64,000 bases of DNA from Desulfurobacterium thermolithotrophum DSM 11699 (lineage in GTDB: Bacteria; Aquificota; Aquificia; Desulfurobacteriales; Desulfurobacteriaceae): assembly GCF_000191045.1 (NCBI RefSeq), contig NC_015185.1:1477969-1541968 (forward strand), written 5' to 3'. Shown here piece after piece: positions 10,464 to 63,977 of the stretch. How positions within the stretch are numbered: position 1 is the first letter of the stretch; each line of letters opens with the position of its first letter. Under the pieces are notes generated by a model. It was not told where the DNA came from, did no database searches, and saw only the letters and a program-made list of their open reading frames with translations. The position numbers were made by a program, and so were the translations under genes.

Positions 10464-10479
10464 AAAGATGTCAACCCCC
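10464..10479. repeat. Left subterminal inverted repeat of the IS110 element
   Basis: AAAGATGTCAACCCCC on the plus strand. It matches the right-end copy (11768-11782, inverted) at every position except one extra A before the C run. The transposase stop codon lies inside this repeat. Confidence 0.65.
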
Positions 10480-11571
10480 AACACAGAGGTTGCATTTATT
10501 TTCAACAAAATCCATAAATTGCCTTCTCTCTCTCAAAACTGCGAACATTACTTTAACCAATTTCCTCGCCGCAGCTATCAGCGCTTTCTTCTTCTCTAAA
10601 CCTTTCTTAACTAACCCTTCGTAAAATCTTTTAACTGAATTGTCTAACTTGCTGTTCAATAACGCTCTCGTAGCCTGGATAATCTTGTTCCTCGTTCTGC
10701 TGTCCCCTTTCTTTGTTATCCTTCCATTTCTAACTTCGTCTCCACTGCTATTAACACGAGGAACAAGTCCAAAATAAGCCGCTACCTTGTCTCCGTTTTC
10801 AAACCTCTCTTCGTTACATACGGCAGATATAAAGGCTATAGCTACTATATCTCCTACTCCAGGTATGCTTTTTAGAAGTTCTACTTTTCCCTTAAGCTCC
10901 TCATCTTCTCCTATAAAACTCTTGATATCTTCTTCTGTCTCTCTTATCTTATCTGTTAAGTATTCTATTGTTTCTATTTGCCTCCATATCGTTTCTCGTA
11001 ATGACGGAGGCACTTTCTTCTTCGTTTCTTCCTTTATCCTTTCCATCCCTTTCTTCGTGGTGAGTTCTCTCTTGTTTGTCTTTATCCCATATTCAAGCAA
11101 TAGGCTATGAAGTCTGTTAATTACCCCTTTTCTCATATCTACAAAGCTATCTCTCTCTTTCATCTTTATCCTTAGCTCTTTTTCTTTTCTCGTCGGGACG
11201 TAAACTGTCGGAAGTAAGCCCATTTCATAGTAAATGGCTATCGTTTCTGCATCTATCCTGTCGTTTTTAGCACTGTTAACACCTTTTAGAATGTTCTTAA
11301 ATTTGTTAGTGTTAACGTAAGTTATTTCATCAACGCAGTTCCTTATCTCCTCCGTAAAAAATGTTACTCCTGTTAAGGTTTCTACCGCAACTTTTACTGA
11401 ATATCCTTTTTTCCTAAAAGTTGTTAGGTGATTTTTAAATTTCTCTAACTCTTCTGCTTCGTACTTCTTGGTATTAAGTATCCCTGTCAGACAATCTAAA
11501 TAAGCTGCTGTAAAGCTGTTTTTGTGGTAGTCCACTCCGACATACAGTGTTTTCTCTACCTTCTCCTTCAT
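10471..11571 (-). CDS. IS110-family transposase (DEDD recombinase)
   Basis: A 366-residue transposase. The RuvC-like DEDD acidic residues are visible in YVGVDYHKNSF, VAVETLTG and KNDRIDAETIA. The C-terminal Tnp20 domain has the helix-hairpin segment SIPGVGDIVAIAFIS and the conserved serine in RVNSSGDEVRNG. The start is ATG 11571, after GGGGGTAGAG. An upstream in-frame extension to 11778 is judged non-coding because it runs through strongly structured sequence. Modern work shows that IS110 recombinases are guided by an RNA encoded in the element's end; a candidate lies directly upstream. It looks intact, with no stop or frameshift. Confidence 0.93.
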   Translation of the reverse strand: MKEKVEKTLYVGVDYHKNSFTAAYLDCLTGILNTKKYEAEELEKFKNHLTTFRKKGYSVKVAVETLTGVTFFTEEIRNCVDEITYVNTNKFKNILKGVNSAKNDRIDAETIAIYYEMGLLPTVYVPTRKEKELRIKMKERDSFVDMRKGVINRLHSLLLEYGIKTNKRELTTKKGMERIKEETKKKVPPSLRETIWRQIETIEYLTDKIRETEEDIKSFIGEDEELKGKVELLKSIPGVGDIVAIAFISAVCNEERFENGDKVAAYFGLVPRVNSSGDEVRNGRITKKGDSRTRNKIIQATRALLNSKLDNSVKRFYEGLVKKGLEKKKALIAAARKLVKVMFAVLRERRQFMDFVENKCNLCVGG

Positions 11572-11575
11572 CTCT

Positions 11576-11773
11576 ACCCCCTGATATGTTTTGTGTTTTG
11601 CAACCTCTGCTTCGGAACTATTCCCATACTCCAATACGGCGCTTCCCGCCACTATAATTAGCCGGCAGGAGGCATCGGCTAATCTCCACGCACGGGGCTT
11701 ATTCCCCAGGGAAAAATCCAGCCTCCTGCCTTTAAAGGTTGCCTCTTTACTATAGTCCCGAATTTCAGGGGGT
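11576..11773 (-). ncRNA. Candidate IS110 bridge RNA / structured leader
   Basis: The non-coding end of the IS110 element upstream of its transposase holds several perfect inverted repeats: 11576-11584 with 11765-11773 (9 bp), 11600-11606 with 11736-11742 (7 bp), 11664-11673 with 11721-11730 (10 bp), and 11657-11664 with 11676-11683 (8 bp). The first two are nested and would close the whole RNA. The last two share bases, so they are alternatives or a loop interaction. The GC content is clearly above that of the surroundings. Position, size (about 200 nt) and structure fit a bridge RNA. The outer stem also covers the transposase ribosome-binding site. Function is inference. Confidence 0.6.
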
Positions 11774-11782
11774 GACATCTTT
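11768..11782. repeat. Right subterminal inverted repeat of the IS110 element
   Basis: The reverse complement reads AAAGATGTCACCCCC, matching the left copy at 10464-10479 apart from one missing A. It partly overlaps the outer stem of the structured leader. Confidence 0.65.
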
Positions 11783-19508: not shown

Positions 19509-20142
19509 AAATAAACGATACGACGGTATATACTTCCAAGAAGTAAATTGTAAACTTGGATTAAAAGCTTTTAAGGTTCCTATGTTCTTTAGTTTTAAAG
19601 TAGTGGATTTAGAAAATAAGCAATTTATTGCAAAAAAATTTACACCTCCGGGAATAAATAATCTTATTGAAAAAAAGGAGTTTTTATTAATTAAAGAGGA
19701 AACAGAAAATGGTAATTTAGTGTTAATAAAAGCTTTAGCAACAAAATCACTAGAAGATGATTCCTTAATCATAGAACTAGTGGGAAAACCCAAAGAAGAA
19801 AAAAGATTTTTCAATAGATATACTTTTTGCCCCGAATATGCAGGTAAGTTTAAGGCTTTTAAAGATAGTAACTACTTAGGGGATGTCTATATCCAAGACA
19901 TAAGCTTGAAGGGGATAAACCTTATTACATCTACTCCAGAGTTTAAAAATTTAGAAACAGGAACAAAGCTGACAATTGTACAGAAAACCCAAATACTTAG
20001 AGTAGAAGTTGTAAGAATTCAAGGAAAGAGAACTTTTATATCTCTTGGATGCAAAATAGAATATTCCAGCTTTAGTATTATAAATTTTATTTTTAAGCAC
20101 TATGTGGAATTTATCAAAGAGCTCCTTTTTAAAAATACCTAA
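19501..20142 (+). CDS. PilZ-domain c-di-GMP-binding protein
   Basis: A 213-residue protein with an N-terminal YcgR-like beta domain (about 1-95) and a C-terminal PilZ domain. Both c-di-GMP contact motifs are visible: RFFNR (RxxxR, residues 102-106) and DISLKG (D/NxSxxG, 133-138). Such proteins tune flagellar motors or pili in response to c-di-GMP. Its coupling to a chemoreceptor gene supports a motility role. The window also begins with an EAL-domain fragment. The 3' end overlaps the convergent mqnC by 14 bases. Confidence 0.82.
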
Positions 20143-21208
20143 TTTTTCTATAAAGAGTATCTCTCTGACAAGGTTTATATCCAGCATCTTTTATAAGCCT
20201 TACAATTTCTGAAAGAGGAAGTTTATAGCTTACTCCAGCAGCAGCAACAACGTTTTCTTCAATCATTAATGAACCAAAATCATTTGCACCAAATTTTAAG
20301 GCTACCTGTGCCATCTTTCCGCCTTGAGTGACCCACGAAGCTTGGATGTTATCAATATTATCCAGGTATATTCTTGAAACTGCCAAAACTCTTAAGTACT
20401 TTTCTCCACTTGCTTTCTCCGTTACTTCCTTTCCTAGTTCTGTATTATTAGGCTGATAGCTCCAAGGAATAAAAGCCGTAAATCCTCCTGTTTCATCTTG
20501 CAATCTTCTTATAACTCTTAAATGCTCTACAATATCTTCATCTGTATCGATACTTCCAAACATCATTGTCGCTGTTGTCCTAAGGCCTAATCTATGTGCT
20601 GTTTTATGAACATCTAGCCACTCTTTCGTTTTTGTTTTATTTGGAGCTATCCTCTCTCTTACTCTATCACTCAATATTTCCGCTCCACCTCCAGGAATAG
20701 AACCAAGACCAACTTCCTTTAGCCTAATCAATACTTCTTCAACTGAAAGATTTGAAACTTTCGAAATATGAGTAATTTCTGGAGCTGAAAATCCATGGAT
20801 GTGAATTTGAGGAAACTCGGATTTTATAAATCTTATTAAATCTTCATAAAACTCTATATCAAGATCTGGATGAAGTCCCCCTTGAAGAAGAATAGCTGTC
20901 CCTCCAAGATTGATTGTTTCCTGTATTTTTTTTCTCAAAGTATCTTTATCTATAACGTAAGCATCAGGAGATTCCTTATCCCTATAAAAAGCACAAAAAC
21001 GACACTTACAGATACAAACATTAGTGTAGTTGATGTTTCTATCTATAACAAAAGTAACTTCTTTTGCACTATGCTTTTTATTTCTAATGTAATTTGCAAG
21101 TTTTCCAAGAGTTAAAAGATCAAACTTTCCAAGCAGCATCAATGCTTCTTCTTCAGTGATTCTTCTTCCAGTTATAACTTTTTCTATGATATCCATCTCC
21201 TTCTCCAA
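20129..21208 (-). CDS. mqnC: Cyclic dehypoxanthinyl futalosine synthase MqnC
   Basis: A radical-SAM enzyme of the futalosine route to menaquinone. It cyclises dehypoxanthinyl futalosine. The 359-residue product has the radical-SAM motif CICKCRFCAFYRDKE (CxxxCxxC, about residues 60-67). It also carries LLQGGLHPDLDIEFYEDLIRF, HGFSAPEI, SIPGGGAEIL and GGFTAFIPWSYQP, which follow the MqnC pattern more closely than MqnE or CofH. The protein length is normal for the family. No other mqn genes are in the window. It implies menaquinone-based respiration. Confidence 0.9.
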   Translation of the reverse strand: MEKEMDIIEKVITGRRITEEEALMLLGKFDLLTLGKLANYIRNKKHSAKEVTFVIDRNINYTNVCICKCRFCAFYRDKESPDAYVIDKDTLRKKIQETINLGGTAILLQGGLHPDLDIEFYEDLIRFIKSEFPQIHIHGFSAPEITHISKVSNLSVEEVLIRLKEVGLGSIPGGGAEILSDRVRERIAPNKTKTKEWLDVHKTAHRLGLRTTATMMFGSIDTDEDIVEHLRVIRRLQDETGGFTAFIPWSYQPNNTELGKEVTEKASGEKYLRVLAVSRIYLDNIDNIQASWVTQGGKMAQVALKFGANDFGSLMIEENVVAAAGVSYKLPLSEIVRLIKDAGYKPCQRDTLYRKIRYF

Positions 21209-23576: not shown

Positions 23577-24454
23577 AAGAAAAAGAAATACTCATAATAA
23601 CTGGAGAATCTGGAGCAGGTAAATCCAGCGCAATGAAGCATCTTGAAGATTTAGGTTTTTATTGTATAGATAACATTCCTCCCGACCTTATTCCAAGTCT
23701 CATTAGGCTCATCGAGGATAATCCTGAAATTGAGAAGGCCGCTCTTGTTATAGACATAAGAAATCCGGGATTTAGAAATGCCTTTCCTTCAATACTTGAA
23801 AAATTAAAAAAACAATTTGCAGTACAGGTTTGGTATTTCACAGCCGATAAAGATATTCTTATTAAAAGATTTAGTGAAACGCGAAGACCTCATCCGTTTG
23901 AAAAGTATGAACCTGAAAAAGGACTCGAAGAACTCATAGAGGAAGAAAAAGAAATATTAAAACCTATGAAACAATACGCAGACATAATAATAGATACATC
24001 CAAAATGACAATTCATGAGCTAAAAAGATTTATAAAAGGTTTAATATCCGGAGAAAAACCTCGATTAAAAATAACTTTTTTATCCTTTGGTTTTAAATAT
24101 GGAATTCCAACTTCAGCAGATAATATTTTTGATGTTAGATTCCTTCCCAATCCTCATTTCATTCCCAAATTAAGACCAAAAACAGGAATGGACAAAGAAG
24201 TAGTTGACTACATAATGCAGTTTGATGAAAGTAAAAAAATCTTAGATTTAATTTTAAAACTTGTAGAATTTTTAATACCAATGTACGAAAAAGAAGGTAA
24301 GGCCTACATTACTTTCGCTATTGGCTGTACTGGGGGACAGCATAGATCTATAGCACTTGCAGAACTCCTTGCATTTCAAACTCATGAAAAATTTCCAGAG
24401 TATGAAATTTACGTTGAACACAGAGAGAAAAATGTTAGAAGGAGGATTTCATGA
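23573..24454 (+). CDS. rapZ: RapZ-family nucleotide-binding protein (YvcJ-like)
   Basis: A 293-residue P-loop protein. The Walker A motif GESGAGKSSA is at residues 11-20, followed by FYCIDNIPPDLIP. The C-terminal domain has FLSFGFKYGIP, DVRFLPNPHF and IGCTGGQHRS, all diagnostic of the RapZ/YvcJ family. In E. coli RapZ is an RNase E adaptor controlling GlmS via small RNAs; in other phyla the role is less clear. It overlaps its neighbours as ATGA on both sides. Confidence 0.93.
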   Translation: MKEKEILIITGESGAGKSSAMKHLEDLGFYCIDNIPPDLIPSLIRLIEDNPEIEKAALVIDIRNPGFRNAFPSILEKLKKQFAVQVWYFTADKDILIKRFSETRRPHPFEKYEPEKGLEELIEEEKEILKPMKQYADIIIDTSKMTIHELKRFIKGLISGEKPRLKITFLSFGFKYGIPTSADNIFDVRFLPNPHFIPKLRPKTGMDKEVVDYIMQFDESKKILDLILKLVEFLIPMYEKEGKAYITFAIGCTGGQHRSIALAELLAFQTHEKFPEYEIYVEHREKNVRRRIS

Positions 24455-24978
24455 AGAAAAAAGTCATCGTCTGTGGCCCCTACAATGCAGGAAAAACTAC
24501 CTTCATAAAGAATATAAATCCTCAAGAATTCATAGGAACTGAAGAAAGAGAATTCGATGTAGAAAATCTAATAGAAAAAGAAACAACAACTACTGTTGGA
24601 ATAGAAATGAACTTTTCGAAAAAGGAAACTCACCAATTTTTGTTTTTTGGATTACCAGGACAAGAAAAATTTGACTTTATCTGGGAAATAATAGGTGAAA
24701 ATTTTGACGGAATTCTCTTTCTTCATCCTGCGTATGAAGATGTCAGAAAATTAAAGTTTTACGTCGATTTCTTTTCTAAAACAAATTCCTTTTCAAAAGC
24801 TTTTAAAATGATACTTATTACTCATTGCGATGAGGCAAAAATCAATAATTTTAAAACTTTTAAGCAATTTGGATTTCCTGTAAAGACAATAGATCCAAGA
24901 AAGAAAGAAGAAGTATCTGAAATTATTAATTTCATAACAAAAATTTTTAACGGAGATTTGTATGTTAAAAATCTTTAA
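24451..24978 (+). CDS. Small Ras-like GTPase of conservon (CvnD)/MglA type
   Basis: A 175-residue GTPase. G1 is GPYNAGKTT (9-17), G2 lies in TTTTVGIEM, G3 reads FFGLPGQEKF (66-75) and G4 is probably THCDEAK. The G3 lacks the usual aspartate, but the FG-x-PGQ form is characteristic of the bacterial CvnD-like group, which works with roadblock/LC7 partners. The next two genes and the one after hmd encode roadblock-like proteins, so the pairing holds here. The ATG follows GGAGGATTTC and overlaps rapZ as ATGA. It probably acts as a cytoplasmic switch; its input and output are unknown. Confidence 0.82.
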   Translation: MKKKVIVCGPYNAGKTTFIKNINPQEFIGTEEREFDVENLIEKETTTTVGIEMNFSKKETHQFLFFGLPGQEKFDFIWEIIGENFDGILFLHPAYEDVRKLKFYVDFFSKTNSFSKAFKMILITHCDEAKINNFKTFKQFGFPVKTIDPRKKEEVSEIINFITKIFNGDLYVKNL

Positions 24979-25438
24979 AAAGAAAGATAAAGAAAAAATA
25001 AAAAATCTCCGCGAGTACTTGGAAAAAAAGTGTACTGAAATTGAGGCAAGTGGATGGATTGCAACAGCAATATTTTCATCTGATGGATTGAAAATCTTTT
25101 CCAAGCATAAAAATAAAAACTACAATGTAGATAAAATCTACCCTTATGCTATCAAACTCTTTCAAACAGCTTCCAAATTTCATCAAAAAGCAGAACCTGG
25201 TCTAAAAATAGGAGGATTTGAACCTCCAAGAGCTCTTGTTTGTCAGCTAGATACAAAAGAAATTATCCTTATAATGAAAGGATATTCTCGTAAACTTGAT
25301 TTCTTTCTTATTTATATTGCTGATCCAGGACTATCTGTATTCTTTTCAATAGACAAAAGCATAAAGAAACTTAAACAGTGGCTATTTGATGTAAGTCAGA
25401 CAATTGATGATTTAATAACTATAAGGGAAAGGAAATGA
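24962..25438 (+). CDS. Divergent roadblock-like protein
   Basis: A 158-residue soluble protein. After a lysine-rich N-terminus it shows alternating strands and helices: GWIATAIFSSDGLKIFSK, a helix around PYAIKLFQTASKF, ALVCQLDTKEIILIMKGY, and FFLIYIADPGLSVFFSID. This is the order of a roadblock/LC7 fold (strand-strand-helix-strand-strand-strand-helix), but the similarity is too weak for a firm call. It overlaps the GTPase gene by 17 bases and the next gene by four, so it is probably a partner or regulator of the GTPase. Confidence 0.6.
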   Translation: MLKIFKKKDKEKIKNLREYLEKKCTEIEASGWIATAIFSSDGLKIFSKHKNKNYNVDKIYPYAIKLFQTASKFHQKAEPGLKIGGFEPPRALVCQLDTKEIILIMKGYSRKLDFFLIYIADPGLSVFFSIDKSIKKLKQWLFDVSQTIDDLITIRERK

Positions 25439-26118
25439 GTTTCAAAGAGCTCTTGCTAAACCTACTAGGAACAAAAAGTAAATGGTCTATTGTTGTAGAA
25501 ATTGGAGATAGACAAGGGATTATACATATTCATGGAGGCAAAATTATAAAAGCAAAAATAGAAGGAGAAGAAAATTTATCAGGAATCGAAGCTATCAAAT
25601 TTCTTATTTCTCGAGAAAATGAAATAAAAGATGTTAATCTTTTACCTTTTGATAAACTTATAGAAAAAGAAATTAATATAGATCAAATGGAGTTTTTTTC
25701 CTTAATTTCTGGAAGTACTGAAAAGTCTTCGGAAAATAGAAAATTAAAAATTAATCAGGAAGAAACAATAAATGAACTAGAAAAAGAAATTCCCATACTG
25801 AAACTTTTAGAAAAATATTTTCACAAAGAAAATATTCAACTTATCTATTCTTCTCAGGGAAGCATTTTTTCAAATTTAGAAGAATCCAAAGAGATCAAAA
25901 ATATAGTTCAAGCATATCTTGAAATATTCAGAAATTCTCTTCAGTATGAAAATATTATTTTTCATTTTTCTAACTCTTTTGGAATTTTCCTTATAAAAAA
26001 GGAAAAATTTCTATTAATTCTAATCGATAACAGTGAACTTTCCAATTTTGGTCTTGATGAACCAGAAATATTAGAAAATTTAAATCAATTTCTGGAAAAA
26101 GATGATTACATTCACTAA
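25435..26118 (+). CDS. DUF4388-like protein with a second roadblock-like domain
   Basis: A 227-residue protein. The first 85 residues (SFKELLLNLLGTKSKWSIVVEIGDRQGIIHIHGGKIIKAKI) resemble the DUF4388/PATAN-type domain seen in bacterial signalling proteins beside GTPases. A charged linker of about 35 residues follows. The C-terminal part (ILKLLEKYFHKENIQLIYSSQGSIF ... GIFLIKKEKFLLILIDNSEL) has a roadblock-like pattern. It closes the GTPase module; a promoter and hmd follow within 50 bases. Both domain calls are by pattern. Confidence 0.6.
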   Translation: MSFKELLLNLLGTKSKWSIVVEIGDRQGIIHIHGGKIIKAKIEGEENLSGIEAIKFLISRENEIKDVNLLPFDKLIEKEINIDQMEFFSLISGSTEKSSENRKLKINQEETINELEKEIPILKLLEKYFHKENIQLIYSSQGSIFSNLEESKEIKNIVQAYLEIFRNSLQYENIIFHFSNSFGIFLIKKEKFLLILIDNSELSNFGLDEPEILENLNQFLEKDDYIH

Positions 26119-26165: not shown

Positions 26166-27239
26166 ATGAGGGTTACCGTCTATGGTTTTGGAAGTCTTAA
26201 TTATTACTCAAATAAATTAAACGTTCCTGAAAAGTTAGGGGGTGAACCTCCTTATGGTGGCTCTGCAATGGCAGTAGAATTTGCAAAAGCAGGGCACGAT
26301 GTCACTCTTTCTGATCCTAATATAGATAAAGTACCAGATGAAATAAGAAAAAAAGTCGAAGATGCTGGAGTTAAACTTACAACTGATGATATAGAAGCTG
26401 CAAAAGAAGCAGAAGTAGCAATCTTATTTACTCCTTTTAGAGGAGGAGTAACTTTTAAAATAGCAGAAACTATTCTTCCTTATCTTGTTGAAAATGCAGT
26501 AATCTGTACTACGTGTACCATGTCTATACTCGTTCTTAATTCTTATCTTCAGAACGCTATTTTCCTAGAAGGAAGAGAAGATATAGGTTTTTCAACCATG
26601 CATCCAGCTGCAATTCCTGGAACTCCTCAACATAAACACTATTTAATTGCAACCAATGAACTTTTAAGAAAACCAATAGTAACAGAAGAACAGATAGAAA
26701 AACTTAAAAAACTTGCTACTGATACAGGAAAGGAAGCATACCTTCTTCCAGCAGAACTTGTATCTCCTGTAGGCGATATGGGTATAGTAACAACAGCCAT
26801 TGCCTTCGCAGGAGCAATTGAATACTACAAAGTTTCAAGAGATATTCTTAAAACAAAACGTTCTATGACTGAATTTCAGATTGCTCAATCACTTCAAGTT
26901 ATTTCAAGTTTAGTTACAAAATACGGATTAGAAGGACTCATAAAACTTCTTAATGTAGACGCAATGAAAGCTTCTCTCCAATCGATGATTTTAGACAAAA
27001 ATGAACAACCTCTTACAGTTACAGCAAGTAAACTCCTTGAAAAGATAGAAGAAACAATTCCAGAACTAATAAAAGAAGCAGAAAACTTTTCTCCTTCTGA
27101 ACCTACCTATACATCAGCTCCTTCCCCTATGCTTGTTGAACATATGGAAGACCTTGTAGGTGATGATGTTCTAAAAGGTATTTTAAGAGAGTCATGGAAA
27201 AAGTTTTATGAAAATGTTTCAGAAAGAAATAAAGAATAA
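26166..27239 (+). CDS. hmd: [Fe]-hydrogenase paralogue, HmdII type
   Basis: Hmd enzymes carry the FeGP (iron-guanylylpyridinol) cofactor and transfer hydride from H2 to a methenyl pterin. The 357-residue protein opens with a Rossmann strand, VTVYGFGSL. It has the iron-ligand cysteine region VICTTCTM (Cys117), the following histidine motif STMHPAAIP, and the C-terminal helical domain beginning SPVGDMGIVTTAIAFAGAIEY. It is shorter than archaeal Hmd, and Tyr14 appears to replace the His14 of the catalytic enzyme, as judged against the archaeal sequence from memory. ATG 26166 follows AAAGGAG. HmdII of Desulfurobacterium has been described as using folate-type substrates; here a sensory or slow folate-linked role is inferred. 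Confidence 0.9.
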   Translation: MRVTVYGFGSLNYYSNKLNVPEKLGGEPPYGGSAMAVEFAKAGHDVTLSDPNIDKVPDEIRKKVEDAGVKLTTDDIEAAKEAEVAILFTPFRGGVTFKIAETILPYLVENAVICTTCTMSILVLNSYLQNAIFLEGREDIGFSTMHPAAIPGTPQHKHYLIATNELLRKPIVTEEQIEKLKKLATDTGKEAYLLPAELVSPVGDMGIVTTAIAFAGAIEYYKVSRDILKTKRSMTEFQIAQSLQVISSLVTKYGLEGLIKLLNVDAMKASLQSMILDKNEQPLTVTASKLLEKIEETIPELIKEAENFSPSEPTYTSAPSPMLVEHMEDLVGDDVLKGILRESWKKFYENVSERNKE

Positions 27240-27268
27240 GTTTTTTAACCATCTAATGGAGGGATATT

Positions 27269-27649
27269 ATGGCTAGCAAAAGAGAAAAGTTAGAGGAAAT
27301 ACTTTCAGATCTTGCCGATTCTCTTGGCTCTGATATGCTTGGCGCATTAATAGCAACACCTGACGGGCAAGTAGTTGCTTCAACAATGTTAAAAAGTAAC
27401 TTGAGTGCTGAAAAGCTAGCTGCTATGTCGGCAGCCGTTGTTGGTACATCTGAAAGACTTTCAAAAATTGTTGAAGCAGGAGATTTCCAAGACGCTTTAG
27501 TTAGATGTTCAAACCAAAATATTCTATCCAAAAAAGCTGGTAGGAGAGCAATATTGGTTTGTGTAATTAAATCAGGAGCAAATATTGGTCTTTTGAACAT
27601 AGAGGTAGAAGATGCAATTGAAAGAATTACAGCCGTTTTGGGAATGTAA
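27269..27649 (+). CDS. Roadblock/LC7-domain protein
   Basis: A 126-residue single-domain protein with a clear roadblock/LC7 signature: an N-terminal helix (KLEEILSDLADS), GALIATPDGQVVAS, a long helix KLAAMSAAVVGTSERLSKIV, and the strand pair ILVCVIKSGANIGLLNIE. Such proteins are homodimeric partners or activators of MglA/CvnD-type GTPases, and one such GTPase is encoded 2.3 kb upstream. It lies between hmd and hcgA with no gap large enough for a terminator, so it is co-transcribed with the cofactor genes. It begins at ATG 27269 after GGAGGGATATT. Confidence 0.9.
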   Translation: MASKREKLEEILSDLADSLGSDMLGALIATPDGQVVASTMLKSNLSAEKLAAMSAAVVGTSERLSKIVEAGDFQDALVRCSNQNILSKKAGRRAILVCVIKSGANIGLLNIEVEDAIERITAVLGM

Positions 27650-27655
27650 ATTTTC

Positions 27656-28525
27656 ATGATTGAAATCACATCAACTATACATGTAAGTAATTACTGCTCT
27701 TTTGAGAGAAAATGTGCCTACTGTGGTTTTGCAGTAGGCACATCTACGGAAGGATATTTTTTTCTTACAGAAAAAAAGGAAAAGGAAATTATAACAGCAG
27801 CAAAAATTATTGAAGAAAGTGGAATAAGAAGAGTTAGCATTTCTGCAGGATATGGTAATTTTTATAAAGTTTTAAAAGCTTTAGAGTTAGTAAAGAAAAG
27901 CACTTCACTAAAAGTTTTAATAAATATAGGTGGAGATTTGAATAGAGAGCGAATTCGTATGTTAAAAAAAGCTGGAGTTGATACAATTTGTTGTAATCTT
28001 GAAACTACCAATAAAAACCTTTTTAAGAAATTAAAGCCAAGTGATTCTTTCAAACATCGTTTACACGTTTGTTATCTGGTAAAGGAAGAGGGAATTGAAC
28101 TTTCAAGTGGAATTTTAGTAGGTATAGGAGAAACTGAGAAAGATAGAGAACAACACATTGAAATCTTAAAAAAACTTGAACCGGAAGAAATTCCCGTAAT
28201 GCGTTTTATGCCGTATAAGGAAACTCCTATGGAAAGTGTTCCACCAGCTTCTTTGAAGCTTCTAATATATGTAATAAAAAAGGTAAAAAAAGAAATTAAA
28301 AGCCTTAAACGATTAACTGTTCCATTTCCTACAATTTCAAAGGAAGACTTAATTTCCGTTATAAATGCCGGTGCTACAAATATTGCTACTGTCGTTCCCC
28401 AAAAATATCCCCTTTTAATTAAGGGAGTTGGCTCTCCCAAAGTTGGTATACTTGAAGAGATTCTTGAAATCCTTAAAAGACACGGAATAGAAACAAATGT
28501 TAGAAGAGAAGTTAGAACTTTTTAA
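27656..28525 (+). CDS. hcgA: HcgA, radical SAM enzyme of FeGP cofactor synthesis
   Basis: A 289-residue BioB-like radical-SAM protein. It carries the unusual cluster motif CX5CX2C (Cys14, Cys20, Cys23 in YCSFERKCAYCGF) that distinguishes HcgA from ordinary CX3CX2C members. Then come SISAGYGNFYKVLKALELV and GILVGIGETEKDREQHIEIL. HcgA is thought to act in pyridinol-ring formation for the FeGP cofactor. It starts seven bases after the roadblock gene and overlaps the next gene by 29 bases. Confidence 0.9.
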   Translation: MIEITSTIHVSNYCSFERKCAYCGFAVGTSTEGYFFLTEKKEKEIITAAKIIEESGIRRVSISAGYGNFYKVLKALELVKKSTSLKVLINIGGDLNRERIRMLKKAGVDTICCNLETTNKNLFKKLKPSDSFKHRLHVCYLVKEEGIELSSGILVGIGETEKDREQHIEILKKLEPEEIPVMRFMPYKETPMESVPPASLKLLIYVIKKVKKEIKSLKRLTVPFPTISKEDLISVINAGATNIATVVPQKYPLLIKGVGSPKVGILEEILEILKRHGIETNVRREVRTF

Positions 28526-29690
28526 AAATGCTTTTTTGGAATCTTTGGTAGGAAACAGAAAAGGAGATAAACCAGAAGAAACAGCTCTTTTAAGAGAAAG
28601 AATATTAAAAGGAAAGATAGGTATAGTTACAAATAATAAGAAAAAGTTTACCATTGCTAAAAAAACTATCTCTCTTTTTGGAATAAAAAATATTTCGCAG
28701 ATTGAAATTCCAACTGAAATTTTTGATTTAACAGAAATTCCTACGCTTTCAAAAGCTTTAGCAGGAAGATTTTTCAAAAACTGTAACTTTTATGTAGCAC
28801 GAGGAAGACTTGGAGCTCCAGGTTCTGGGGCTTTAACTATAATGATAGATGAATTTGGTCATGTAATTTCTGCAGTAACTTCTCCTCCACATCATCTTCA
28901 CAAGTTTAGTTTAGAAACTTCTGTCTTTCTTGATATTTTTAGACTTTTAAAAAGATTGGGCTTTACGCCTTCTCATAACGGTATAACCAAAAGAACAAAA
29001 ACAGTTTATTCTTCTTTAACACCTTTAAAAATTGCTGAAAAAATTTCAGAAAAGAAGTCTATACCTTTAAAGAATATTAGAGGAAAAAAACTTTTAATAG
29101 TTGGTGGCTACCTTGACGGTATATTCTTTGCTTCTATCTTGAAAGATCAATTTGAAAAAATTCATATCTTTGATATTGAAAACTCAGTTTTAAAGCTTGC
29201 CGAGCTTTTAGGTTTAAAGTCCTTTCTTCCCGAGAAAGAGTTTGTATATGATGTAATTTTGGATCTTACAGGTTTTGGCGGCGCCATTTGTAGAGATGGA
29301 AAAGTTTCTAACTTCAAAGGAAAAATGATAATTTCTGAAGTAGCTTCAGGAGTGCAGGAATTTCCTAAAAACGGTAAACCTCACTTTCTTTTAAAATTAA
29401 AGAAAGGAAAGGCAAATACATCGGGAACAATGACATTAACAGTAAAAACTGTTCGAGAAAGTGCCGCGAAAATAGAAGAAATTGAAGGTGTTTTATACGC
29501 TGTTCCTCAACTTTTCTTTGCCGAATCACTACTATTTAATGTAAAAAGTGCAGAAAGTTTTTATGAGCTAATGGAAATACCAGCTCTTACCGTTTCTTGT
29601 AAGACAGAAACTTCTCTAAGAACAGAAGATATAGACAAAAAAATAACGGAGGTGATAGAAAACTTTGAGTTTGAATTGGAAAGAGTTTGA
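28497..29690 (+). CDS. Fused HcgB-HcgC, FeGP cofactor guanylyl- and methyltransferase
   Basis: A 397-residue protein that appears to join two hcg products. Residues about 1-170 (KGKIGIVTNNKKKFTIAKKT, ARGRLGAPGSGALTIMIDEFGHV, SPPHHLHKFS) match the general pattern of HcgB, the pyridinol guanylyltransferase. Residues about 180-397 begin with KKLLIVGGYLDGIFFASIL, a Rossmann SAM site, and contain VYDVILDLTGFGGAICRDGKV, as in HcgC, the pyridinol methyltransferase. Archaea encode these as separate genes. Together with the other six genes this completes hcgA-G. The start at ATG 28497 lacks a strong Shine-Dalgarno and overlaps hcgA, suggesting coupling. Confidence 0.75.
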   Translation: MLEEKLELFKNAFLESLVGNRKGDKPEETALLRERILKGKIGIVTNNKKKFTIAKKTISLFGIKNISQIEIPTEIFDLTEIPTLSKALAGRFFKNCNFYVARGRLGAPGSGALTIMIDEFGHVISAVTSPPHHLHKFSLETSVFLDIFRLLKRLGFTPSHNGITKRTKTVYSSLTPLKIAEKISEKKSIPLKNIRGKKLLIVGGYLDGIFFASILKDQFEKIHIFDIENSVLKLAELLGLKSFLPEKEFVYDVILDLTGFGGAICRDGKVSNFKGKMIISEVASGVQEFPKNGKPHFLLKLKKGKANTSGTMTLTVKTVRESAAKIEEIEGVLYAVPQLFFAESLLFNVKSAESFYELMEIPALTVSCKTETSLRTEDIDKKITEVIENFEFELERV

Positions 29691-30366
29691 ATCGTTTTTA
29701 AACGATTTAGTACCTAAAACTTTAGCTCTACCTGAAGACTTTTATGGATGGGTTAATAAAAACCGTCCTAAAACCATTGAACAAGTAGCTGTTGTAGTAG
29801 ACTTTATACCAAACAGAATTCCACTTGAAAAATTTGACGTTGTTATTTCTCATCATTTTCCTTCCTTTATTCCTAAAGTTCCTGTTTTTGTAGTCCATAC
29901 TCCTTTAGATAGGATAGATTGGGGGTGTAACTTTCAATTGGGAAAGGGATTAAACATCAAAAATTTATCCTTCATAGATAAGAAACGGTTAGGAATGAAA
30001 GGAATACGCAAAGTAAATACGTTTAAACTCTTAGAGGAAGTTTCTAAAAAGCTTAATGCAAAATATTTAAGATATTTCTTTCCAAAAGAAGAAATCGAAA
30101 CCATAGCTATCTTTAGTGGTTGTGGACTTAACTTTTTACCTTTCATAGAAAAAATAGAAAAAGAAAAAGTTAACCTTGTCATTTCAGGAGATCTAACTCA
30201 CCATGTTGCCTGTCGGCTTAAAAGCTTAAACATTGGATTTATAGACATTTCACACTACAAAAGCGAAGTTCCAGGAGTGAAAGAACTGACAAAAAGGATT
30301 AATCAAATTGTAAATGCGGAGTTTGTAGATGTCGGAGAAGCGTATTTTAACGTTTGCTTCTGTTGA
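29665..30366 (+). CDS. hcgD: HcgD, Nif3-like iron protein of FeGP synthesis
   Basis: A 233-residue Nif3-family protein. Metal-binding elements are visible: ISHHFPSF (about 55-62), SGDLTHHVA (about 172-180) and the terminal VDVGEAYFNVC with its glutamate. HcgD is proposed to deliver iron to the FeGP precursor. It starts at TTG 29665, preceded by GGAGGTGAT at ideal spacing, and overlaps the preceding gene by 26 bases and hcgF by 38. Being in the cluster separates it from the generic GTP cyclohydrolase-like Nif3 proteins. Confidence 0.87.
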   Translation: MSLNWKEFESFLNDLVPKTLALPEDFYGWVNKNRPKTIEQVAVVVDFIPNRIPLEKFDVVISHHFPSFIPKVPVFVVHTPLDRIDWGCNFQLGKGLNIKNLSFIDKKRLGMKGIRKVNTFKLLEEVSKKLNAKYLRYFFPKEEIETIAIFSGCGLNFLPFIEKIEKEKVNLVISGDLTHHVACRLKSLNIGFIDISHYKSEVPGVKELTKRINQIVNAEFVDVGEAYFNVCFC

Positions 30367-30844
30367 ATGCTTTACTCACTGCGAAATTGGTATGACCATC
30401 CACAAACGCTCTGCACCTTATGTAAAAAATAGATGGAACATAGCAGTTGTCTTTTCTTCATTTTTACCTTCAATAAATATCGCTAAAAAACTTTTTAATG
30501 TAAATCTTCCTTCACCGAATAAAGAAATAAACGGAATTAAAATTTACAACGAAGAAGGAGATACAGAAGTTTCTCTTGTTCTCTCTAAGCACATTAAAGC
30601 TTTGCTTAACGTAGATATAACCATTGCTTCAAGTGCTGGAGAAGGAAGAGGAGCTGTTGTTGTAAGATTTAAAAACAAATGTTTCTTAGTTCGTTCACTC
30701 TTTTCCATTCCTTCTTTTGAAAAAGCAACAGAAAAAGATATAAAAAGAAGAAAATACTCGGCAAAAAAAAGAACTATACGTCTTATTGAAAGCCTTATAT
30801 TCAACAATCCATTACCTACTTTTGTAGAGGAAATAGATGGATAA
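30329..30844 (+). CDS. hcgF: HcgF, UPF0254-family FeGP biosynthesis protein
   Basis: A 171-residue member of the UPF0254/HcgF family. The N-terminal segment FASVECFTHCEIGMTIHK matches the family consensus, including the cysteine (Cys14 here, Cys9 in the archaeal protein) that takes the cofactor precursor as a thioester. The glycine-rich SSAGEGRGAVVVRF is also typical. HcgE, encoded next, activates the precursor carboxylate that HcgF accepts, so adjacency fits the pathway. ATG 30329 has GGAG seven bases upstream and lies inside hcgD. Confidence 0.87.
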   Translation: MSEKRILTFASVECFTHCEIGMTIHKRSAPYVKNRWNIAVVFSSFLPSINIAKKLFNVNLPSPNKEINGIKIYNEEGDTEVSLVLSKHIKALLNVDITIASSAGEGRGAVVVRFKNKCFLVRSLFSIPSFEKATEKDIKRRKYSAKKRTIRLIESLIFNNPLPTFVEEIDG

Positions 30845-31520
30845 AGTAGCGATACTTGAAAGAAAACTTGTACCTTCTGGTAAGGTTATTCTCTTAGGAG
30901 CTGGTAGGTTAGGAATAAGAGTTTTTGAACGCCTTATAATGGTTCACAGAGGGGGATTTTATAACTTAACTGTCTTCGATGGTGGAAGAGTAGAAGAGAA
31001 TGATTTTTATCATATTATGAAGGGAGCTTTTTTAGGAGAAAATAAAGCTTCATTTTTAAAAAGAATTTTTTCAATACAAGACAATTCTTACAAAAAAATT
31101 GTTGCAATTCCTGAAGACTTTTCCTTTTCTATACCTCAAAAAAAAGAAATAGAAACTGCAGACATTGTTATTTCAACTATTGCCGGCGGAAATACTCTTC
31201 CTCTTATCTCACAGATTGCCAATTACTGTGTATCAAAAAATATTCCGTTTATAACAACAAATGGAGTGTTTGGTTTTGGAAATGAAAAAATAAAAGTTTT
31301 TCATTCTTTAAATAATGTAACAGAAGGACCTGCTCTTTTTTTAAAAAATGAAAATTTTCCATCAAATTCTCCTCTTGTTACCTTTGTTGGGACAGGAAAA
31401 TTAATAAAAGACGGATTACCTATAACACCTATGAACCTTGATAGAATCGCTGATGAAATAGTATTAGAATCACTAAAAAAGTACTATATGGAGAGAAAAA
31501 ATGAAAGAACTAATATATAG
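30837..31520 (+). CDS. hcgE: HcgE, ThiF/E1-like adenylyltransferase
   Basis: A 227-residue E1-like protein. The nucleotide-binding VILLGAGRLGIRVFERL is at about residues 18-34, followed by LTVFDGGRVEENDFYH, a ThiF/MoeB-type acidic loop. Unlike ThiF it has no CxxC zinc pair or obvious catalytic cysteine, which is also the case for archaeal HcgE. It adenylylates the carboxylate of guanylylpyridinol before thioester transfer to HcgF. It overlaps its neighbours by 8 and 20 bases. Confidence 0.87.
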   Translation: MDKVAILERKLVPSGKVILLGAGRLGIRVFERLIMVHRGGFYNLTVFDGGRVEENDFYHIMKGAFLGENKASFLKRIFSIQDNSYKKIVAIPEDFSFSIPQKKEIETADIVISTIAGGNTLPLISQIANYCVSKNIPFITTNGVFGFGNEKIKVFHSLNNVTEGPALFLKNENFPSNSPLVTFVGTGKLIKDGLPITPMNLDRIADEIVLESLKKYYMERKNERTNI

Positions 31521-33024
31521 AACCATTCAAGGAGATATTAACTCTCAATACATTCTTTATAAAAAAGCAAAAGAAGAAATTCAAAAACTTTTTGAAAATA
31601 TCAAAAAGCTAAGTGACGGAGAATTAATTGCACTCGGACAACGGTTTAAAGAATTTCCATTTGGATGTGACCTAAACGAAATTATGGTTGATGTTGTAAG
31701 CTTAAAACAGGAAATAGATGAAATCCGAGGAGGATTTCGTCTTGTTGATAGATTAGGTTTTCCCATACATGTCTGCTCTTACGTTGTTGCCGAACTTGCA
31801 GAAAGAGAAGGAAAAACTCCCTTAGAGTTAATGAAAGAATTGAGAGCTCTAACATCTATGCCTATTGATATTGACCATTTTGGACAGTTTGGACCCATGA
31901 GATACCCTGAAGAAATAGCCAAATGTCCGGCATACTGTTATCGTTCCGGAAAACCATTTAACGGCTGTCCACGGGGAAGAATACACAAAAGACTAATAGA
32001 AAAGGAAAGGTGCTTTGCTAAAGAAAAAGAAGGCTGGTCAGAACTTGTTCAATCAATAAGTGTTAGCCTAATGGCTTTTCAAAAGAACACTGTTCACGCT
32101 GCATCTCCAGAAGAAACTTTAAAAGTAATCGATTTTGCAAAATCAAAGAAAAAGGGTGTTGGTGCAATAATCTGTGTAGGAAACGGAAAAGATGAATTAC
32201 TAAGAGGTTTAAAAGCCTGTATTAAACATAGTATTGACGAAATAGTTATTGAAGGTGGACCTTACAACACAGCACCTAACAGAGTACGAGCTTTTGGTGA
32301 AACAGTTGTTATGGCAAGAATCATTGCTCCTGGAAAAATAGTAGCAACAAATGGCCAATATGAAGATGAGCTCCGATTTGGACTCAAATGTGGTTTAAAC
32401 AGTGTAATAAGTGGATTTCCAGGCAATCATCACGCTTACATGTCAGGTTACAAACCAGAAAAAGCTACTATAGATAGATTTGGTTTACCAAAAATCATAG
32501 AGCTAATGGCTCAAGAATTAAAAGATTCTCCCTTTCCTATCCCTGCAGACAGAGAAAGTGCAATTGTAATAGCAAAATCTGCAAAGTTTCTCGGAAAAGA
32601 AACCATTTACCCAAATGGAAAATTAGGAGATATTTACATAGGAGACGCTCATTGGTTTTTACTTCTTAACTCTCCATTAGCTCAAGGTATAAATATTAAA
32701 TGGTCTCTTGAACTTTTAACTGAATTTATAAGAAAAAATAAGTTTAAAAAAGTAGGTTTGTTAGGAGGACGTTTTATCGCTTGGGGAATAGCAAAAGCTA
32801 TAGATCCTTTTGTCAAAGAAATACTTGTAAGCGATAAAGACAAAAGAATAGAAAATACAACTGTTAAAGTCTTTAAAGAGTATCTTTCTTCAAAAATAAC
32901 ACGTTGTAATGGTAATGACGATATGTGTATTAAGAATTCAGAGATAACAGTCTTATGTTCTTTTATTCCGTCTTTTATAAGAAAGTTTAAAGGAATACAA
33001 AAAGTTATTACTCTTGAAAGTTAA
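31501..33024 (+). CDS. hcgG: HcgG, FeGP cofactor biosynthesis protein
   Basis: A 507-residue protein matching HcgG in length, position and general features. The N-terminal half has a conserved SMPIDIDHFGQFGPMRYPEEIAKCPAYCY region with CPAYCYRSGKPFNGCPRGR cysteines. The middle is TIM-barrel-like (GAIICVGNGKDELLRGLKAC, IVIEGGPYNTAPNRV). The C-terminal part is a fibrillarin/Rossmann-like segment, FKKVGLLGGRFIAWGIAKAID. HcgG is implicated in late cofactor steps, including the acyl and CO ligands. It ends the cluster; its stop overlaps the convergent hydrolase gene by four bases. Confidence 0.87.
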   Translation: MKELIYRTIQGDINSQYILYKKAKEEIQKLFENIKKLSDGELIALGQRFKEFPFGCDLNEIMVDVVSLKQEIDEIRGGFRLVDRLGFPIHVCSYVVAELAEREGKTPLELMKELRALTSMPIDIDHFGQFGPMRYPEEIAKCPAYCYRSGKPFNGCPRGRIHKRLIEKERCFAKEKEGWSELVQSISVSLMAFQKNTVHAASPEETLKVIDFAKSKKKGVGAIICVGNGKDELLRGLKACIKHSIDEIVIEGGPYNTAPNRVRAFGETVVMARIIAPGKIVATNGQYEDELRFGLKCGLNSVISGFPGNHHAYMSGYKPEKATIDRFGLPKIIELMAQELKDSPFPIPADRESAIVIAKSAKFLGKETIYPNGKLGDIYIGDAHWFLLLNSPLAQGINIKWSLELLTEFIRKNKFKKVGLLGGRFIAWGIAKAIDPFVKEILVSDKDKRIENTTVKVFKEYLSSKITRCNGNDDMCIKNSEITVLCSFIPSFIRKFKGIQKVITLES

Positions 33025-61465: not shown

Positions 61466-62272
61466 TTAATAATTTGCTACTTGACATATATGCCTAAAAT
61501 CACACCATCGACAGTTGGATTCACAAGGAGAAGGAATAAGTTCACTGAAGCTCTTACCAAGAAGTTCTCCTTCAATATTTTCAATTATAGGTAAGAGCCT
61601 CAGTTTAAAGAGCTTAAGATCATTCTCAGTAAAAATAAATCTGTTAACTGTTCCGTATCTAACATTGTGAACTTCAAGGGCAAACCTTTTAAACTCTGGA
61701 AACTTAACATTAGCAAGAAGAGCATACCAGCGAAGCTGAGTTTTTATTTTGTTGTTAAAATTCTTGCTTCTGCTGGTCTTGTGATCAACAATGTAAAGAG
61801 TGTCTCCCTTAGAGAAGACAAAATCTAATTTTCCTCTTAAAAAAACTCTTTCTGAGCAAAAATCGGAAAGAAGATTGAAATCTTTGTCAACAGCAAGTTC
61901 TAATTCTGAAGCAATAAATTTGCTTTCAGAAGCTCTCCTTAGCTGTCCATTTACATATTTAAGTATATTTGGAAAAAACTCTGCAATTTTATTAACTTCT
62001 GCCAAAGGTTCTTCTCTTTTGAAAGTTTCTGCAAAGTAGAAAAGAAGATCTCTACTAAGAGGTCTTTCTCTTTCAAATACTGCATTCAACGCATTTTCAA
62101 GAACAAAGTGAACCCCACTTCCAAGAACAAGAAAGTCTGCTCTTTCTAAGGGTTCCTTCTTTTCTACATAATTCCAGTAGAATTCATACTGACATCTTTT
62201 CGCTTTCTGAACCTTAGAAAAAGACCAAGGACGAAGGTGCTTTATTTCAATCCTGTTCTCTATTAATTCCAT
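61466..62272 (-). CDS. PD-(D/E)XK nuclease, RecB/Cas4-like with Fe-S cysteines
   Basis: A 268-residue nuclease distinct from the one at 44647-45567. A first cysteine lies in VQKAKRCQYEFYWNYV, followed by GSGVHFVLENAL (His). The catalytic core is VFLRGKLDFVFSKGDTLYIVDHKTSRS, then TQLRWYALLANV. C-terminal CESNCRWCDFRHIC completes a probable 4Fe-4S site. This is the PF12705-like RecB-nuclease architecture. It overlaps proS by 26 bases, an uncommon pairing. No helicase or cas gene is adjacent, so its partner is unknown. Confidence 0.83.
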   Translation of the reverse strand: MELIENRIEIKHLRPWSFSKVQKAKRCQYEFYWNYVEKKEPLERADFLVLGSGVHFVLENALNAVFERERPLSRDLLFYFAETFKREEPLAEVNKIAEFFPNILKYVNGQLRRASESKFIASELELAVDKDFNLLSDFCSERVFLRGKLDFVFSKGDTLYIVDHKTSRSKNFNNKIKTQLRWYALLANVKFPEFKRFALEVHNVRYGTVNRFIFTENDLKLFKLRLLPIIENIEGELLGKSFSELIPSPCESNCRWCDFRHICQVANY

Positions 62273-63977
62273 TCTTTCCTCTTACGAGCTCTCCAATCTT
62301 TTCTACTACCTTATTTACAGCAATTTCGAACCGCTCTCCTGTTTTTCTAACTTTTATTTCAACAACTCCTTCTCCTGCTTTTTTCCCAACTATAATTTGA
62401 TAAGGAATACCTATAAGGTCTGCATCCTTAAACTTAAATCCAGGACGAGCATTTCGATCATCAATAGCAACATCAAAGCCATTTTTCTGAAGTTCATCGT
62501 AAATATTTTCAGCAGTTTCAATAATTTCTTCTTTTTTTACGTTAACAGGAATAACTATTACTTCAAAAGGTGCAATTTCTACCGGCCAGATTATTCCATT
62601 TTCATCATAATTTTGCTCTACAGCCGCAGCCATCACTCTTGTTACACCAATACCGTAACATCCCATAACCATAGGCTTTTCCTTTCCATCTTCGTCAACG
62701 AACGTAGCATTCATAGCTTGGCTATATTTAGTACCAAGCTTGAAAATGTGTCCAACTTCTATTCCTCTTTTTTCTATGAGAGGAGCTGCGCACTTTGGAC
62801 AAGGATCTTCTCCTTTAACTTCAGCAAAGTCTACAAATTCCGTGACTTCAAAATCTCTTTCCCAGTTCACATTTTTAAGGTGATAATCTTTTTCTCCAGC
62901 TCCAGCAACAAAGTTAACCATAGAAACAACCGAGTAATCTGCATAAACAGGAATTTTTAATCCTACCGGTGAAAGAAAACCTTTCGGTTGTCCTGTGAAC
63001 TTTTCTATCTCTTCATCAGTTGCAAGTCTGAGTTTGCTACCTTTAAAGAAGTTCTTTACTTTGAGTTCATTTACTTCTCTGTCTCCTCTAATAGCAATGG
63101 CTATAGGTTTTTCATCAACAATATAAACAAGGAGCTTTAAAATATTTTCTGGAGAAATTCCAAGAAATGCTGATACCTCTTCAATTCTTTTAACATCTGG
63201 AGTATGAACTTTTTCTACACTCTTAAAGTTCTCTTTTCTGCTTTCTGGAACTTTAGGCTCTTTTTGCTCTGCTTTTTCGGTACTTGCAGCATAGCCACAC
63301 TTTTCACAATAGACAAGTTTCCCTTCTCCTGTATCAGCTATAACCATAAATTCATGAGAAAACTTTCCGCCAATTTCTCCAGTGTCTGCTTCAACAGCTT
63401 TAAAAACAAGTCCCATCTTCCTAAAAATTCTCGAGTAAGTTTCATACATATTCCAGTATTCTCTTTCAGCATCCTCGTTGGAAGCATGGAAAGAATAGGC
63501 ATCTTTCATTATGAATTCTCGAGCTCTCATCAGACCAAAACGAGGACGAATTTCATCTCTAAATTTCCTTCCAATTTGATAAAGATTTAGAGGAAGGTCT
63601 TTATAAGACTTAACTTCTTTTCTAACAAGGTCTGTAATCATTTCCTCAGCTGTAGGCCCAAGAGCATAATCCCTGTCGTGTCTATCTTTAAACTTTATCA
63701 TCTCCTTTCCATATACATCCCATCTTCCGCTTTCTATCCAAAGTTCTGCTGGATGCATAATCGGCAAGATAACTTCCTGAGCTCCAGCTTTATTCATTTC
63801 CTCTCTAATAACTTTTTCAATCTTTAAAAGAACCTTAACTCCAAGAGGCAAAATATCATAAAGACCTGAGGCCTTTTTTCTGATAAAACCAGCGCGAATC
63901 AATAACTTATGACTTGGAATTTCTGCATCTGCCGGTGATTCTTTCATAGTCGGTATAAACGCTCTTGAAAATCTCAT
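62247..63977 (-). CDS. proS: Prolyl-tRNA synthetase
   Basis: A 576-residue bacterial-type class II synthetase. It starts MRFSRAFIPTMKESPADAEIPSHKLLIRAGFIRKKASGLYDILPLG. Motif 2 is QIGRKFRDEIRPRFGLMRAREFIMKDAYSFH. The editing (YbaK-like) insertion domain follows at about 225-385, and motif 3 lies in MVMGCYGIGVTRVMAAAVEQNYDENGIIWP. The C-terminal anticodon-binding domain contains DDRNARPGFKFKDADLIGIPYQIIVG. The start ATG 63977 follows CGGAGGAGCC. Confidence 0.96.
   Translation of the reverse strand: MRFSRAFIPTMKESPADAEIPSHKLLIRAGFIRKKASGLYDILPLGVKVLLKIEKVIREEMNKAGAQEVILPIMHPAELWIESGRWDVYGKEMIKFKDRHDRDYALGPTAEEMITDLVRKEVKSYKDLPLNLYQIGRKFRDEIRPRFGLMRAREFIMKDAYSFHASNEDAEREYWNMYETYSRIFRKMGLVFKAVEADTGEIGGKFSHEFMVIADTGEGKLVYCEKCGYAASTEKAEQKEPKVPESRKENFKSVEKVHTPDVKRIEEVSAFLGISPENILKLLVYIVDEKPIAIAIRGDREVNELKVKNFFKGSKLRLATDEEIEKFTGQPKGFLSPVGLKIPVYADYSVVSMVNFVAGAGEKDYHLKNVNWERDFEVTEFVDFAEVKGEDPCPKCAAPLIEKRGIEVGHIFKLGTKYSQAMNATFVDEDGKEKPMVMGCYGIGVTRVMAAAVEQNYDENGIIWPVEIAPFEVIVIPVNVKKEEIIETAENIYDELQKNGFDVAIDDRNARPGFKFKDADLIGIPYQIIVGKKAGEGVVEIKVRKTGERFEIAVNKVVEKIGELVRGKNGINREQD

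Follow-up and report, generated by a model that had tools for sequence, protein, structure and literature searches.

Why should a bacterium without [Fe]-hydrogenase (Hmd) keep the whole pathway for the iron-guanylylpyridinol (FeGP) cofactor of this enzyme, when the protein that would hold the cofactor is nearly inactive? The question is raised by a 64,000-nucleotide stretch of the genome of Desulfurobacterium thermolithotrophum DSM 11699 (NC_015185.1, positions 1,477,969 to 1,541,968; hereafter the window), in which positions 26166-33024 carry, in this order, hmdII, which encodes a paralogue of Hmd, and the FeGP biosynthesis genes hcgA, a fused hcgB-hcgC, hcgD, hcgF, hcgE and hcgG, with a Robl_LC7 (roadblock/LC7) gene between hmdII and hcgA. 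What HmdII does has long been in question; proposals so far make it a scaffold, a sensor or a protein linked to tRNA. A conserved tie of hmdII to genes for roadblock proteins and Ras-like GTPases in both domains names testable partners for HmdII, and we consider it somewhat probable that HmdII is an FeGP-bearing one-carbon (C1) sensor feeding a GTPase/roadblock switch, and not a pathway enzyme. The hmdII-hcg cluster itself has been published, whereas its link to GTPase/roadblock genes appears to be new. The genes on which the argument turns are the following (pLDDT, predicted local distance difference test; pTM, predicted template modelling score):

24451-24978, + strand: Ras-like small GTPase (MglA/Arf-like), with P-loop GPYNAGKT, switch II GLPGQ and no clear NKxD
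24962-25438, + strand: orfX, roadblock/LC7-fold protein by AlphaFold2 (pLDDT 81) and Foldseek; no Pfam match
25435-26118, + strand: orfY, with a probable C-terminal roadblock-like domain (AlphaFold2, pLDDT 73, pTM 0.47)
26166-27239, + strand: hmdII, FeGP-binding Hmd paralogue (Y14 for Hmd His14; C117 equivalent to Hmd Cys176; PDB 6huy, TIGR01724)
27269-27649, + strand: roadblock/LC7 protein directly 3' of hmdII (PF03259, Robl_LC7, 1.4e-10; PDB roadblock/MglB matches)

The earlier gene list of this run was incomplete: the first-pass annotation had missed the roadblock/LC7 gene inside the run as well as the GTPase and roadblock genes upstream, which of all features of the locus bear most on the function of HmdII. 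A roadblock protein is found here both by PF03259 and by fold (24962-25438), together with a Ras-like GTPase (24451-24978), and the gene at 27269-27649 is one of three Robl_LC7 matches in the genome. The GTPase has weak Pfam matches to Roc and Arf and an Arf-like match in the PDB (3.5e-6); in profile-profile comparison, it matches the GTPases linked to archaeal HmdII (probability 98%, E 2.7e-13). The model of OrfX retrieves MglB, Ragulator and Roadblock3 at E 7e-6 to 4e-4, among 74 Foldseek matches with E<=0.001. For OrfY, the modelled order alpha-beta-beta-alpha-beta-beta-beta-alpha of residues 120-221 and Foldseek matches to roadblock proteins (E about 1e-2 at best) are suggestive of a C-terminal roadblock-like domain.

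In the family Desulfurobacteriaceae, hmdII was found in 8 of the 22 sampled genomes and not found in the other 14. Four of the eight carry a second copy, which makes 12 hmdII genes in total, and in 12/12 cases a roadblock gene lies directly 3' on the same strand. The four second copies are 57-60% identical to HmdII of the window and are followed by a roadblock gene with no hcg genes adjoining. Conversely, a member of the same genus as the window genome (G121) has hcgA-G, with hcgBC split by a frameshift, and neither hmdII nor a close roadblock homologue; the roadblock link therefore belongs to hmdII and not to hcg, and an association with hcg instead was ruled out by the hcg-free second loci and by G121. 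At the G121 locus (L058, 5462-14738), the neighbours of hcgA-G are a [NiFe]-hydrogenase-like gene pair and a chemoreceptor-like gene. The second hmdII-roadblock pair of one genus (L049, 9283-14375; L047; L051) is preceded 5' by co-directional genes that are kinase-like, of unknown type or GlnE/GlnD-like nucleotidyltransferases.

The pairing recurs in methanogens. Among Methanococci, a roadblock gene lies within 1 kb on the same strand for 22/47 hmdII genes (18/29 genomes; about 0.05 expected by chance), and among Methanobacteria for 8/27 (8/17 genomes; about 0.04 expected). In Methanococci, hmdII is usually followed by the gene for a GTPase of some 155 residues and then by the roadblock gene; the GTPase was seen beside hmdII in 15 of the 29 loci inspected, twice as truncated or shifted frames. 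These GTPase matches derive from a curated alignment, and rows of an iterated hidden Markov model that had drifted into HcgD were left out. Presence and absence follow the same pattern, with a strong roadblock match in 27/29 Methanococci genomes with HmdII vs 0/7 without, and in 17/17 Methanobacteria genomes with HmdII vs 4/103 without. The roadblock gene may stand upstream or downstream of archaeal hmdII, and sensor-type FIST and V4R genes adjoin some of them. A survey of prokaryotic small GTPases describes an MglA group that is almost confined to methanogens and gives no function for it (PMC4316618); this group may include the archaeal HmdII-linked GTPases.

HmdII (26166-27236) is 100% identical over 357/357 residues to PDB 6huy, from the same organism, so the finding of a bacterial HmdII was already known: D. 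thermolithotrophum HmdII and its FeGP operon are a published system, and a reading of the locus as the discovery of a new bacterial Hmd was ruled out. The first-pass annotation was right that a Desulfurobacterium HmdII had been described, but gave the precedent the wrong weight, this being the same protein and not a further case. The protein was described by Watanabe et al. (2019), whose title states activity on tetrahydrofolate (THF, H4F) derivatives (cited in PMC7460606). Of the proposed tests for the Fe cofactor and for H4F and tetrahydromethanopterin (H4MPT) substrates, much exists in print: the specific activity of the D. thermolithotrophum protein (DthHmdII) is 8 mU/mg vs 350 U/mg for native M. 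jannaschii Hmd, i.e., tens of thousands of times lower, and M. jannaschii Hmd reconstituted with FeGP extracted from DthHmdII reaches 42 U/mg (PMC7460606). The FeGP cofactor of DthHmdII is thus real, since it reactivates M. jannaschii Hmd.

Its classification as an [Fe]-hydrogenase paralogue held. The protein matches HMD (5.9e-33) and hmd_rel (TIGR01724, 5.7e-109) and passes the HmdII subfamily models TIGR01724 (364 bits, cut-off 167) and NF009208 (384 bits, cut-off 258), but not the Hmd equivalog model TIGR01723 (84.5 bits vs cut-off 341.45). Where Hmd has its catalytic His14 (22/22 sequences), 65/65 aligned HmdII, including that of the window, have Tyr, while the Fe-ligand Cys (Hmd Cys176) is kept in 61/66 HmdII, including the window protein and all 12 bacterial ones. 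In an HmdII-like clade of Methanococci (L079, L080, L081, L134), Asp or Ser replaces this Cys, and these proteins probably do not hold FeGP in the usual way because the ligand is replaced. Three to four hmdII paralogues stand in tandem in Methanothermococcus single-cell genomes (L070, 6110-11017; L076, 8863-12210), one of which, at 8721 in L070, has Tyr instead of the Fe-ligand Cys. Strongly diverged HmdII-like genes with no roadblock gene near were seen in two Euryarchaeota metagenome-assembled genomes (L082, L083). The claim of a full FeGP gene set in a bacterium with no methanogenesis genes in view also stands: the D. thermolithotrophum genome has a single HMD gene, and no methenyl-H4MPT cyclohydrolase (Mch) was found in it by a search that found Mch in three control archaea.

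The earlier call for trees of Hmd and each Hcg protein was answered for HmdII and HcgG. The 12 bacterial HmdII genes form one clade (100% support) with two paralogue groups inside; the branches of the tree are long and its backbone is unresolved, and it settles neither the place of the bacterial clade nor donor and direction of transfer. Bacteria and archaea split with full support in the HcgG tree and in the roadblock tree. In the latter, roadblock genes of hmdII-less relatives (G115, G118, G134) nest inside the hmdII-linked group with moderate support, which suggests that these relatives have lost hmdII.

How might such a pairing work? The Hcg proteins would make FeGP and then load it onto HmdII; HmdII holding FeGP and a THF C1 carrier (H4MPT in archaea) would switch state; and this state would be read out by the roadblock/LC7 protein and the Ras-like GTPase encoded next to it, in the manner of MglA/MglB or the conservons of Streptomyces. 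The sensor reading is drawn because HmdII keeps the FeGP Cys, has exchanged His14 for Tyr and is hardly active, and because its roadblock/GTPase neighbours offer a plausible output. A sensor function had been put forward earlier, with no partner known (PMC7460606). The more specific proposal, that a module common to both domains has HmdII as its ligand-sensing subunit, which reports C1-carrier (and perhaps H2) status to the roadblock protein and the GTPase, is a serious possibility that falls a little short of probable. The sequences themselves show which genes are present, that the active site has changed and that the adjacency recurs in both domains; we infer the complex of HmdII with its partners, its ligand, the direction of signalling and the output. 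If true, HmdII gains its missing function, a hydrogenase-derived sensor joins the inputs of prokaryotic small-GTPase systems, and the retention of a whole FeGP pathway for a nearly inactive protein in a bacterium without Hmd is explained.

Several observations weigh against the sensor. Gene adjacency does not equal interaction, and no adjacent roadblock gene exists for about half of the hmdII genes in Methanococci and two thirds in Methanobacteria. The binomial and Fisher tests applied to these counts ignore shared descent; their p-values overstate independence and cannot be taken at face value because the genomes are related. Firmer evidence is that the pairing recurs in three lineages and at two loci in bacteria. 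The GTPase of the window is a distant relative of the archaeal one, lacking a clear NKxD motif, and the GTPase gene of genus g3 stands at a distance from hmdII. Moreover, the GTPase, orfX and roadblock genes stay together in four hmdII-less Desulfurobacteriaceae (G115, G117, G118, G134); the GTPase may thus be all that the roadblock protein serves. Finally, HmdII is slowly active on THF derivatives, to judge from the published title (Watanabe et al., 2019, cited in PMC7460606).

That last point could make HmdII a slow metabolic enzyme, which with FeGP and H2 hydrogenates methenyl-THF and so feeds the THF C1 branch of an H2-dependent autotroph. The title names the substrates for this very protein, the cofactor is functional in M. 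jannaschii Hmd, and THF-type FolD and methylene-THF reductase are reported for Desulfurobacteriaceae (PMC5441870). However, the methenyl-THF step is already done by FolD, the activity is minute, every aligned HmdII has Tyr for His14, most sampled Desulfurobacteriaceae show no hmdII, and the roadblock/GTPase linkage would be left unexplained; this account seems unlikely. Less likely still is that the genes adjoin as a relic of position, with a roadblock protein and GTPase that act without HmdII and an HmdII that acts elsewhere, e.g., with prolyl-tRNA synthetase or tRNA. The set retained without hmdII in four genomes and an association of prolyl-tRNA synthetase with HmdII in M. jannaschii (PMC4394549) would fit, but the pairing recurs across the three lineages and both bacterial hmdII loci, with the archaeal roadblock gene on one side of hmdII or the other; the two genes co-occur by presence and absence; and the nesting of the roadblock genes of hmdII-less relatives is consistent with loss of hmdII. 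Quite improbable, to our mind, is a role as scaffold or store in FeGP assembly, with an operon that serves to make or hold the cofactor. HmdII is the first gene of the hcg operon, archaeal HmdII binds FeGP (PMC3087415) and Goldman et al. suggested a scaffold, as reported in PMC7460606, yet methanogens that lack HmdII still make active Hmd, for which M. maripaludis does not need hmdII (PMC3087415, PMC7460606), the D. thermolithotrophum genome has no Hmd to supply, and the second hmdII of genus g3 lies apart from hcg genes.

The cofactor genes of the run complete the locus:

27656-28525, + strand: hcgA, radical SAM, pyridinol precursor synthesis (TIGR03957, rSAM_HmdB, 8.2e-98; CX5CX2C in 24/24 sequences)
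28497-29690, + strand: fused hcgB (guanylyltransferase)-hcgC (methyltransferase), one 397-residue reading frame (PF11576 3.2e-57, PF06690 2.2e-38)
29665-30366, + strand: hcgD, NIF3-type, proposed iron delivery (PF01784 6.2e-28; conserved H63 H64 D82 H197 E201)
30329-30844, + strand: hcgF, thioester carrier (PF06787 3.8e-51; C14 the single invariant Cys)
30837-31520, + strand: hcgE, ThiF-like adenylyltransferase (PF00899 3.6e-8; homologous to archaeal hcgE)
31501-33024, + strand: hcgG (HcgG/HmdC), CO/acyl ligand formation (PF10113 1.7e-167, TIGR03958 5.7e-164)

As had been read from the sequence, hmd and all seven hcg functions lie in one run by Pfam and NCBIfam matches, and hcgA-hcgG form a full set with none interrupted. 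A lack of cofactor residues in the Hcg proteins had been named as a ground for refutation; the diagnostic residues are intact in HcgA, HcgD and HcgF, with C14, C20 and C23 forming CX5CX2C in HcgA of the window. The 2019 abstract of Watanabe et al. is said also to name the hcgA-G genes in Desulfurobacterium. HcgD and HcgE are recognised in profile searches by the broad superfamilies NIF3 and ThiF alone; they match archaeal genes sited in hmd-hcg clusters. Ten of the 136 Aquificota genomes encode HcgG; they come from four genera and all belong to Desulfurobacteriaceae. The wide contig scan (two peptide patterns, 21 loci) is no measure of absence from other bacterial phyla. Elsewhere, the window holds an IS110-type transposase gene (10471-11778) and a CofH/MqnC-type radical SAM gene upstream of the cluster (20129-21208, - strand), which probably serves menaquinone and not F420 synthesis. 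The gene at 62247-63977 encodes a class II tRNA synthetase that has an editing domain and is probably prolyl-specific; HmdII of M. jannaschii reportedly binds prolyl-tRNA synthetase, but in the window this gene stands about 35 kb from hmdII.

Compared with known systems, the locus is closest to itself: HmdII of PDB 6huy/6huz (Watanabe et al., 2019) is the same protein from the same organism and gene cluster. Its roadblock/GTPase context goes unmentioned in the open-access papers searched, none of which joins roadblock proteins and HmdII, although a subscription journal may carry such a report; Goldman et al. (2009) do not mention roadblock, dynein, GTP or operons, and the main text of a 2025 chemostat study of strain HR11 does not mention Hmd. 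Archaeal HmdII/HmdIII (M. jannaschii 4yt2/4yt4, 48% identical to the window protein for HmdII; MTH1512, MTH504) share Tyr14, the FeGP Cys and, often, an adjacent roadblock gene. In archaea, however, true Hmd and H4MPT are present, hcg is separate from hmdII, and hcgB and hcgC are two genes, whereas their fusion recurs in Desulfurobacteriaceae relatives. [Fe]-hydrogenase Hmd has the FeGP-binding fold, C-terminal HMD domain and Cys ligand in common with HmdII, but carries His14 and reaches activities of at least 350 U/mg, and HmdII falls below its equivalog cut-off. MglA/MglB and the Streptomyces conservons likewise bring together a Ras-like GTPase, a roadblock/LC7 protein and a sensory partner. 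There, the partner is a kinase or polarity protein, whereas here the GTPase is of a divergent Arf/MglA-like type and the partner would be a metallo-cofactor dehydrogenase paralogue.

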